Of a DNA stretch of 64,000 nucleotides, positions 23,446-26,328 are shown piece by piece. Numbering within the stretch: position 1 is the stretch's first letter; each line of letters begins with the position of its first letter. Source of the stretch: Vicinamibacterales bacterium (GTDB lineage Bacteria; Acidobacteriota; Vicinamibacteria; Vicinamibacterales; 2-12-FULL-66-21). The stretch is from the NCBI GenBank assembly GCA_035699745.1, contig DASSPH010000047.1:1-64000 (forward strand), given 5' to 3'. Below the pieces are notes generated by a model that ran no database searches, was not told the DNA's origin, and worked only from the letters and a program-made list of their open reading frames with translations. A program made the position numbers and the translations under genes.

Positions 23446-23952
23446 TCAAAGCCGTCCCGCGAACACCTGCAGTTCCTGCGCGTCGTTCGGCACCGTCATC
23501 GTCCTCTCGAACGCAAACCCCAGGCGCTGCAGCAGCCGGATCGACCGGCCATTCGCCGGGCTCACGATCGCGAGCAGGCGCGGCAGCCGAAGTGTCTGGC
23601 GCGCGAAGTCGCGGACGGCGGCAGCCGCTTCATAGGCGAATCCGCGCGACCGATAGTCCGGCAGAAACGCGAAGCCGATGTCCGGATCCGGCAAGACGTC
23701 GCGCTTGAGGATGCCGCAAATCCCGATCGGCGTCGACGTGTCGGACAATTCGACGAGCCATAGGCCGAAGCCGTGCTGCGCGTAGCTCGCCCGCGGCCCC
23801 CGCTCGATGTACGACACGGCGTCCGCGATGCTGCGCACCCCGCGATCGCCGATGTGCTCGATGAAGCCGGGATCGTTGAGGAGCGCGAGGATGAACGGCC
23901 CGTCCTCGGCGGTGAGCTCGCGCAGGCCCAGGCGCGCGGTACGCAGGATCAT
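23446..23952 (-). CDS. GNAT family N-acetyltransferase (RimJ/RimL-like)
   Basis: 168 residues of the Acetyltransf_3 type. It begins with the typical [16 protein letters not shown], has [11 protein letters not shown] on the core beta strands, the acetyl-CoA loop in [13 protein letters not shown], and [16 protein letters not shown] at the end. These enzymes acetylate amines on proteins or small molecules; the substrate is unknown. It is one of six consecutive leftward genes with gaps of about 15 bp or less or ATGA overlaps. Confidence 0.85.
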
Positions 23953-23965
23953 CGCCCGCCGACGG

Positions 23966-24616
23966 TCATGGACGTCGATAGAGACCGGTGTAGACCGCTT
24001 TGCCGCGCACGCGTCCGGCCATCGCGGTCATGACCGCGGCGCGCGTCTGCGACGGCGCCGCGCCCACGGCAGGCACGTCGAGCATGCCGTCGAGCGCGAA
24101 CAGCTCGAACACGTAATGATGCGGCGGGCCGCTGGACGGGGCCGCGGGACCACGATAGACCGGACCCGTTGCGCTGATCTGACGCGAGCCGTCCGGCAAC
24201 ACGGCGCCCTGCGGAACCGCCTCCGCCAGCGACCGCGCGGCGCCGGGAATGTTCCAGACCAGCCAGTGCAGCGTGTCGTCCGTGCCGGCGCCGGTCGCCG
24301 CATCGAGATCGTGGACGACGAGCACGAAGCTCGCGGCGGTCTCGGGCACGTTGCTCCACGCCAGCGGGGGGGAGACCTCCCCTCCCGGCTGTGCGTACTT
24401 CGCAGGGATCGGGCCGCCGTCGGGCCATGCCGCAGAGGTCAACGTCATCACCTGCACGCTGCGTCCGCGCCCTGGGCCGCGCTGCGGCGCGGACGGCGCG
24501 CCGGGCGCGGGCGGCTGCGCCAGGGGCGCCGGCGGCGACTGCGCCGGCAGATCGATCGCGGCCGCCAGCGCCAGCACGGCGATCCCCAGTCCGATGCGAG
24601 AACGGGGGATCCTCAT
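23966..24616 (-). CDS. YbhB/YbcL (PEBP-like) family protein
   Basis: 216 residues with an N-terminal signal or anchor (RIGLGIAVLALAAAIDLPAQ) and a Pro-rich linker with GRGRS. The PEBP fold is shown by IPAKYAQPGGEVSPPLAW, VLVVHDLDA, HWLVWNIP, YRGPAAPSSGPPHHYVFELFALD, including the ligand-pocket Asp and His residues. The bacterial family binds phosphorylated or anionic ligands; no reaction is established. Its ATG at 24616 overlaps the DUF1028 stop (ATGA). Confidence 0.85.
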   Translation of the reverse strand: MRIPRSRIGLGIAVLALAAAIDLPAQSPPAPLAQPPAPGAPSAPQRGPGRGRSVQVMTLTSAAWPDGGPIPAKYAQPGGEVSPPLAWSNVPETAASFVLVVHDLDAATGAGTDDTLHWLVWNIPGAARSLAEAVPQGAVLPDGSRQISATGPVYRGPAAPSSGPPHHYVFELFALDGMLDVPAVGAAPSQTRAAVMTAMAGRVRGKAVYTGLYRRP

Positions 24617-25449
24617 TTGAACGACGCCGGCTGCGCCTTGCGCCACGCGTCGTAGCGCATCCGCAGCGTCTTGACCGGATTCAGGTTCTCACCCGCGCGG
24701 ATCTCATTCGCACCGCGCCCCGGCTGCGCGACGCGCAGGAACATCGCATAGCGGCCGTTGTTGTGCGAGTCGCCGTTGGTGTCCGCCTTTTCCGCCATCA
24801 GAATGTAGGCGACGTGCGCCGTCTTGCCGTCGCAGGGGATGGCGGATGCGGGCTGATCGGCGGACGGCGGTGGACAGGAACAGCGGCTGTCGCCGCCAGC
24901 GGCATCCGCCGCTTCGAGCGCCGCCATGACGCGATCGGTCACGGCGCCGCGCGCGGCGACGAACGCCTTCACGGCGTTCGGCACGGCGTCGCCCGGGCGC
25001 AGGATGTTTCCCTGGATCGAATAGAAGATCTCGGTGCCCGGCACCTGTCCCTGCATGTCCTGCGACACGTAGCCGTTCGTCAGGCCCGAATGTCCCGCGC
25101 TGCGTCCCTGCAGATCGACGATGCCGAACTGCCGGCTCTGAAAGGCCGGATCGCGGCTGAGCATCTCGACGATCGCCTTCGGATCGGTGCCCTTCTGCAG
25201 CTCGGCGAAGACCAGCATCTGATTCTGGTGCGTGCCGTCGACGGCCGCCTGGCAGGCCGCAACACCTTTCCCGGGCACGACGACGGCCTGCACGCCGGGC
25301 AGGAATTGATCGTCGCGATCGACGCACGTCGCAGAGGCGATCACGACGCGGCCGGTGCTCCGATCGACCGCGATCACCGACCACGTCGCGAGCGCCGGAA
25401 CCGGCGCCGCCAGCAGCGCCGCCATCATCAGCACGAGAGCTCTGGGCAT
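24613..25449 (-). CDS. DUF1028 family secreted protein
   Basis: 278 residues with a signal peptide ending near PVPALA. The mature protein starts ATWSVIAVDRSTGRVVIASATC, the conserved N-terminus of DUF1028, which is thought to be Ntn-hydrolase-like. Other family segments are GVAACQAAVDGTHQNQM and a C-terminal AEKADTNGDSHNNGRYAMFLRV. No activity is established. The ATG at 25449 is preferred; a GTG two codons upstream is possible. It sits between the GNAT and PEBP genes in the same operon. Confidence 0.85.
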   Translation of the reverse strand: MPRALVLMMAALLAAPVPALATWSVIAVDRSTGRVVIASATCVDRDDQFLPGVQAVVVPGKGVAACQAAVDGTHQNQMLVFAELQKGTDPKAIVEMLSRDPAFQSRQFGIVDLQGRSAGHSGLTNGYVSQDMQGQVPGTEIFYSIQGNILRPGDAVPNAVKAFVAARGAVTDRVMAALEAADAAGGDSRCSCPPPSADQPASAIPCDGKTAHVAYILMAEKADTNGDSHNNGRYAMFLRVAQPGRGANEIRAGENLNPVKTLRMRYDAWRKAQPASFK

Positions 25450-25455
25450 GGTCAC

Positions 25456-25467
25456 GGGTCAGACCCC
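25456..25467. repeat. GGGTCAGACCCC palindromic repeat at a gene junction
   Basis: A half copy of the same motif that forms the 26-bp palindrome at 34117-34142. On the minus strand it reads GGGGTCTGACCC and contains the TGA stop of the GNAT gene at 25459-26001. Confidence 0.7.
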
Positions 25468-26001
25468 TGGATAGCGCATGGCGTAGCACAGCACGTCGGC
25501 CTGCACGCCGGGCGCGAGGTTCGGGAATTCAGCGTACCCGCGCAGCGTTCCCTCGCAGAGGAAGCCGCACTTCTCCAGCACGCGCGCCGACGCTCGATGG
25601 GCCGGATGGCAGAGCGCGTAGACGCGTTCGACGCCCAGCCGCGCCGCACGCTCGCGCACGGCGGCGAGCGCCTCGGTCGCATAGCCGAAGCCCCATGCGT
25701 CGTACGCGAGCACGTAGCCGGTGGACGCCTGTGTCGGGGTCTCGAAGCCGAGGCCGGTGCCGCCGAGGAGTGTGCCGTCGGCGCGGGATTCGATGAGCAG
25801 GGGACCGGCGGGCCAGCGTTCCCACTCGGCGGCGCAGAAGCCGAGAAAGCCCTCGGTGTCGCTCACCGACCGGTGCGTGGGCCATCCCAGATAGCGCGTG
25901 ACGCGCGGATCGCTGGAATAGCGATCGAAGATCGCCTGCGCGTCGTCCGCCGTGGGCGGGCGGAGGCGCAGGCGGGGCGTTTCGAGGACGTGGGTCGTAA
26001 T
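25459..26001 (-). CDS. GNAT N-acetyltransferase with probable ATT start
   Basis: About 180 residues of the RimJ/RimL type. The conserved N-terminal region (LETPRLRLRPPTADDA) and the block RVTRYLGWPTH lie upstream of the first GTG (25866), so that GTG cannot be the real start. Between the in-frame TAG at 26011-26013 and the conserved region there is no ATG, GTG or TTG; the best candidate is ATT at 26001. A TAGAAT box stands six bases before it, the same layout as other genes here. The rest is a standard GNAT core (ALCHPAHRASARVLEKCGF). A sequencing error at the start is an alternative. Confidence 0.75.
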   Translation of the reverse strand: MTTHVLETPRLRLRPPTADDAQAIFDRYSSDPRVTRYLGWPTHRSVSDTEGFLGFCAAEWERWPAGPLLIESRADGTLLGGTGLGFETPTQASTGYVLAYDAWGFGYATEALAAVRERAARLGVERVYALCHPAHRASARVLEKCGFLCEGTLRGYAEFPNLAPGVQADVLCYAMRYPGV

Positions 26002-26007
26002 CCGGGG

Positions 26008-26013
26008 ATTCTA
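26008..26013 (-). promoter_or_regulatory. Candidate -10 box before the ATT-start GNAT gene
   Basis: TAGAAT on the minus strand ends 6 nt before ATT at 26001. Its first three bases are the TAG stop codon of the upstream gene. Confidence 0.45.
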
Positions 26014-26328
26014 CCCTGCGAGCGCGTCCTCGAGGCTCTCGTAGACGCGCAGTCCGCGCGCGCGCGCGGTCTCGAGCAGGGCGCCGGCGCCCGGCGTGGG
26101 CTCGACGCACAGGACCGCGTCGCAGCGGCCGAGCAGCCGGGTGCCGACCGGGTCGGCGAGATCGTCGAACGCGGCGTCCGCGCTCGCATTCTCGCTGCTG
26201 ACCAGCGGCCAGAACCACTGGCCGAGGACGGGAAGGTGTCCGGCGCGGAAGAGCGACAGCGCCGCCCACTCGATCAGCCGCGGGTCGTCGCCGACGACGA
26301 GGATCATCTGGGTCTCGGTTGCCTGCAT
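26011..26328 (-). CDS. Small Rossmann-like protein, DUF4406/nucleoside deoxyribosyltransferase-like
   Basis: 105 residues. It begins MILVVGDDPRLIEWAALSLFRAGHLPVLGQWFWPL after a short lead, then FDDLADPVGTRLLGRCDAVLCVEPT and ends ARARGLRVYESLEDAL. This order resembles the compact nucleoside 2-deoxyribosyltransferase-like/DUF4406 proteins. The usual active-site glutamate was not identified, so function is uncertain. ATG at 26328 is chosen over upstream starts because the conserved region begins there. Confidence 0.6.
   Translation of the reverse strand: MQATETQMILVVGDDPRLIEWAALSLFRAGHLPVLGQWFWPLVSSENASADAAFDDLADPVGTRLLGRCDAVLCVEPTPGAGALLETARARGLRVYESLEDALAG

Follow-up and report, generated by a model that had tools for sequence, protein, structure and literature searches.

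Organization of the locus

The gene under study encodes a GNAT acetyltransferase and lies on the minus strand of the window, i.e. the whole stretch of 64,000 nucleotides that was analysed (Table 1). It belongs to a run of tightly packed genes, overlapping or separated by short gaps, that share one strand between 26328 and 21704; because of this close packing on a single strand, co-transcription and translational coupling of the run are possible. The preceding gene has no match in Pfam or NCBIfam, and its homologue in another genome of the same order (G046, locus L039) shares 43% identity with it. Further along the same run (23446-23952, minus strand) there is a second GNAT gene of the Acetyltransf_3 family, which has a normal ATG and is 31% identical to the first. 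An Rfam search gave no match.

Table 1. Features around the start of the GNAT gene.
Feature	Position	Strand	Remarks
Upstream gene, 105 aa, in the frame of the GNAT gene	26011..26328	-	Ends at TAG 26013-26011; ab initio coding onset at 26328
TAGAAT, -10-type box	26008..26013	-	Final T at -7 relative to the ATT; the TAG doubles as the stop of the upstream gene
ATT at the expected start, one base off ATG	25999..26001	-	Sequence and orthologue starts
GNAT acetyltransferase frame, 180 codons from ATT	25459..26001	-	Stop TGA 25461-25459
GTG, first canonical in-frame start	25864..25866	-	Use would cost 45 conserved residues
DUF1028 gene	24613..25455	-	PF06267, E 2.5e-23; begins 3 nt past the GNAT stop, in the GNAT frame

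The minus strand around the start region reads ...GCTCGCAGGGTAGAATCCCCGGATTACGACCCACGTCCTCGAAACG... and the codons in frame after the TAG at 26013-26011 are AAT CCC CGG ATT ACG ACC CAC GTC CTC GAA ACG. As the initial annotation had described, no ATG, GTG or TTG is found in frame between this TAG and the GTG at 25866-25864. Moreover, none of these codons occurs in any of the frames from 26107 to 25931, so that only a substitution could restore a nearby start, and a nearby single-base indel was excluded as the cause of its absence.

Judged from its sequence, the predicted enzyme is an ordinary GNAT of the RimJ/RimL-like type. Counted from the ATT, residues 10-147 match Pfam Acetyltransf_3 (PF13302) with an E value of 1.3e-28 and 100.9 bits (cut-off 25.4), and the match covers the full domain with its acetyl-CoA loop (WGFGYATEA) intact. 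Ab initio scoring of codon usage places the onset of coding exactly at 26001. When the genes called in 2.29 Mb of the genome were ranked by the coding potential lost before their first canonical start, the GNAT gene came 5th of about 1,550, and in those inspected among the genes ranked above it no known domain was cut off; the absence of a start codon is therefore unusual in this genome. Some of the top-ranked open reading frames without an early start have a normal start downstream (e.g. the peptidase M1 of L100), others being recA with an in-frame TAG and a probable selenoprotein, both described below.

Conservation of the N-terminus

When 162 genomes of the same order were searched, close orthologues came from 19 further genomes (58-72% identity, E below 1e-35). 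The initial annotation had proposed that an alignment of homologues would locate the first residue; in 17 of the 19 an ATG or GTG stands shortly before a conserved ET.RL motif, and the ATT occupies that very place. The two remaining orthologues comprise one with a probable CTG (G073) and one with a disrupted 5' end. Over the 17 aligned orthologues, mean identity is 64% for residues 6-45 and 61% for the rest of the protein. Since these upstream residues are conserved, the predicted protein must begin near 26001 and not at the GTG 25866. A shortened GNAT of 135 aa initiated at this GTG, the earliest canonical start of the frame, is consequently very improbable, as it would drop the 45 residues that include this conserved stretch and lie partly within the Acetyltransf_3 domain. 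The claim that the conserved N-terminus extends well upstream of the GTG thus agrees with the domain match, the orthologues and the onset of coding.

The ATT itself is not conserved, the orthologues of the same order having ATG or GTG in its place with the exception of the one in G073. The latter (L015 around 1486-1501, G073:C10) is without ATG, GTG or TTG near the conserved start and has a CTG one base past the TAG of its upstream gene, behind GGGAG. It probably uses this CTG as its start, and relaxed starts may therefore occur in this family.

The branch leading to the window protein is among the shorter ones of the tree (0.21 vs a median of 0.33). A broad scan of genome contigs returned distant relatives alone (32-44% identity). 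A long-dead pseudogene is excluded by the conservation and by this branch length. Given that the frame and the acetyl-CoA loop are intact, that the branch is short and that conservation does not drop at the N-terminus, any loss of the start would have to be either very recent or only apparent.

Leaderless genes in the genome

Zheng et al. 2011 (PMC3160421) reported leaderless genes, in which a TANNNT box precedes the start by about 12 bp, in all three Acidobacteria genomes examined. A census of such boxes was carried out over 2.29 Mb (about 36% of the genome), in which 1,559 genes were called by codon usage, by counting the distance from the end of TANNNT to every sense codon near the onset of coding. 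At 7 nt, 62 boxes were seen before ATG and 26 before GTG, for about 9 and 6 expected respectively. Taking -7 and -8 together, the excess amounts to 97 for ATG and 29 for GTG; over the same 2.29 Mb the values are -0.8 for ATT, -3.3 for ATC, -3.5 for CTG and 1.2 for TTG, and there is no excess above noise before ATA or ACG. Leaderless genes are thus common in this genome and use ATG or GTG. The ACG at 25998 was rejected as a start of the GNAT gene on the same census.

The 7-nt spacing of TAGAAT-N6-ATT is the modal distance of the leaderless boxes, so that a genome-scale test supports the box noted six bases from the ATT in the initial annotation. TAGAAT is among the commonest boxes of the set, and boxes such as ggTAGAATcaacggATG are found elsewhere in the genome. 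At the modal spacing, 28 of 58 boxes are TAG or TAA and read as in-frame stops; a TAG just before such genes is therefore expected. No sigma-70 promoter with a -35 element was found for the GNAT gene, and the leaderless genes of this genome are likewise without a -35 signal. The statistics of the genome hence support a leaderless-type promoter layout for the GNAT gene, as predicted from its sequence.

A functional leaderless mRNA starting at a 5'-terminal AUU, as first proposed for this gene, would have a box geometry exactly as in the leaderless genes of the genome and a reading frame under normal constraint. On the other hand, there is no leaderless excess before ATT in the 2.29 Mb, and in reporter libraries of M. 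smegmatis the leaderless position was active with ATG and GTG only (PMC4633059); non-AUG leaderless starts are also weak in E. coli according to a review (PMC9031893). Leaderless initiation at this AUU is consequently considered unlikely. Were it true, the rule that restricts leaderless ribosomes to ATG and GTG would have to be revised, and such genes would be escaping gene callers.

Ribosome binding and coupling to the upstream gene

The pairing of the region upstream of the GNAT gene with the anti-Shine-Dalgarno sequence was -4.2 kcal/mol, which lies inside the random range (random median -2.5), and the value for infC of the same genome was -11.6 kcal/mol. This infC (L052, G000:C15) appears to start at an ATC behind a full AGGAGGT, in line with the autoregulation by IF3 seen elsewhere.

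The AUU could instead be a weak but real start on a polycistronic mRNA, with ribosomes reinitiating 9 nt past the TAG of the upstream gene and making little enzyme, in amounts sensitive to IF3. The tight packing of the run on one strand, the reality of the upstream gene and its end at 26013-26011 would all suit such coupling, as would the orthologue of G073 with its CTG next to an upstream TAG. Initiation at ATT is also documented in a leadered context, although in the mycobacterial reporters it required a Shine-Dalgarno site (PMC4633059), and sigR of Streptomyces is known to have a GTC start that is repressed by IF3 and preceded by a AGGAGGTG site (PMC5472188). However, the GNAT gene has no Shine-Dalgarno sequence above the random range, where infC and sigR have strong ones, and its -10 box suggests a promoter of its own. 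Reinitiation is therefore held to be a minority reading, with roughly one chance in five. The IF3 link modelled on infC, which had accompanied the leaderless proposal, finds no support for want of a strong Shine-Dalgarno site, and a leaderless ATT with infC-like logic conflicts with the behaviour of the leaderless genes of this genome.

Possible lesions elsewhere in the assembly

In the sole full-length copy of recA in the genome, an in-frame TAG stands in place of a conserved Gln, SQPDNGE*ALEI (L096 8875-8877, G000:C37, minus strand). Since RecA is unlikely to be missing from a living cell, the simplest reading of this TAG is a consensus error, and isolated base errors or lesions therefore exist in the assembly. 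The GNAT start could be a further such error. From the single clear nonsense lesion observed over 2.29 Mb, the base error rate is estimated to be at most a few per 100,000, and roughly 0.1 start-codon errors are expected among the 1,559 genes. A hit on this very codon is thus improbable, which speaks against an error. Genuine ATT starts outside infC are rare as well, and prior rarity favours neither a start error nor a genuine ATT start.

The recA lesion also bears on the idea that the upstream gene and the GNAT gene form a single protein by readthrough of the TAG, for the two share a frame with this TAG as the sole stop between them and recA has an in-frame TAG too. Against this, the upstream homologue in G046 terminates at the corresponding place with no GNAT behind it, TAG is an ordinary stop (487 of 1,559 genes) and no amber suppressor tRNA was present in the 60 loci scanned. 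Such a fusion is hardly credible, and it was discarded on the end of the upstream homologue and the normal usage of TAG.

Two more genes of the same genome are of note. In an HTH_66/DUF433 gene (L065 15212-15910, G000:C5, minus strand), the ATG that comes after a TAGAAT box is out of frame and there is no early in-frame start, which suggests a one-base indel near the start. A redoxin-like gene (L156 12126-12128, G000:C67:112126-112128, minus strand) has a TGA inside HRGTW*PNCRHRF, corresponding to a UxxC motif; given this motif and a selB above cut-off on contig C99, it looks like a selenoprotein gene.

Origin of the ATT codon

Taken together, the census of leaderless boxes and the absence of a Shine-Dalgarno sequence favour an ordinary GNAT gene of the leaderless type, in which the ATG is read as ATT through a recent mutation or a consensus error, an explanation which we judge somewhat better than even. 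The gene would have belonged to the large leaderless class of the genome, its TAGAAT box placing the start of transcription on 26001, where the start codon begins. This codon, formerly ATG (or GTG), would now be ATT through a recent single-base change, either an error of the assembly consensus or an actual allele in which the start is lost or weakened, with no dedicated ATT mechanism. We infer an ancestral ATG at this position and a change that is either recent or erroneous. After the mutated or misread ATG, coupled AUU reinitiation ranks second and the leaderless AUU third. The initial annotation is therefore upheld on where the start lies, on the missing canonical codon and on a -10 box of leaderless type. 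Its leaderless initiation at ATT is not supported, given boxes enriched before ATG and GTG only, the mycobacterial data (PMC4633059) and the recA lesion in the assembly. If a change or an error is indeed at the origin of the ATT, the geometry of leaderless boxes combined with the alignment of orthologues can locate damaged start codons in assemblies.

Comparison with known systems

As an enzyme, the GNAT of the window resembles the RimJ/RimL-like members of Acetyltransf_3 in its complete domain with WGFGYATEA, and the sole oddity of its gene is the start codon. With the ATT or ATC of IF3-regulated infC it shares a non-canonical ATN at the expected start; infC differs by the full AGGAGGT before its ATC, the ATT of the GNAT gene being without such a site or a known link to IF3. 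The GTC of sigR (PMC5472188) is likewise a non-canonical start outside infC, but it stands behind a strong AGGAGGTG site and is conserved across Streptomyces, whereas 17 of the 19 GNAT orthologues have a plausible canonical start. With the TANNNT leaderless class (PMC3160421), the gene has in common its TAGAAT with the last T at -7 and the absence of a Shine-Dalgarno sequence, and it departs from it in reading ATT where the class, here and in mycobacteria, reads ATG or GTG.
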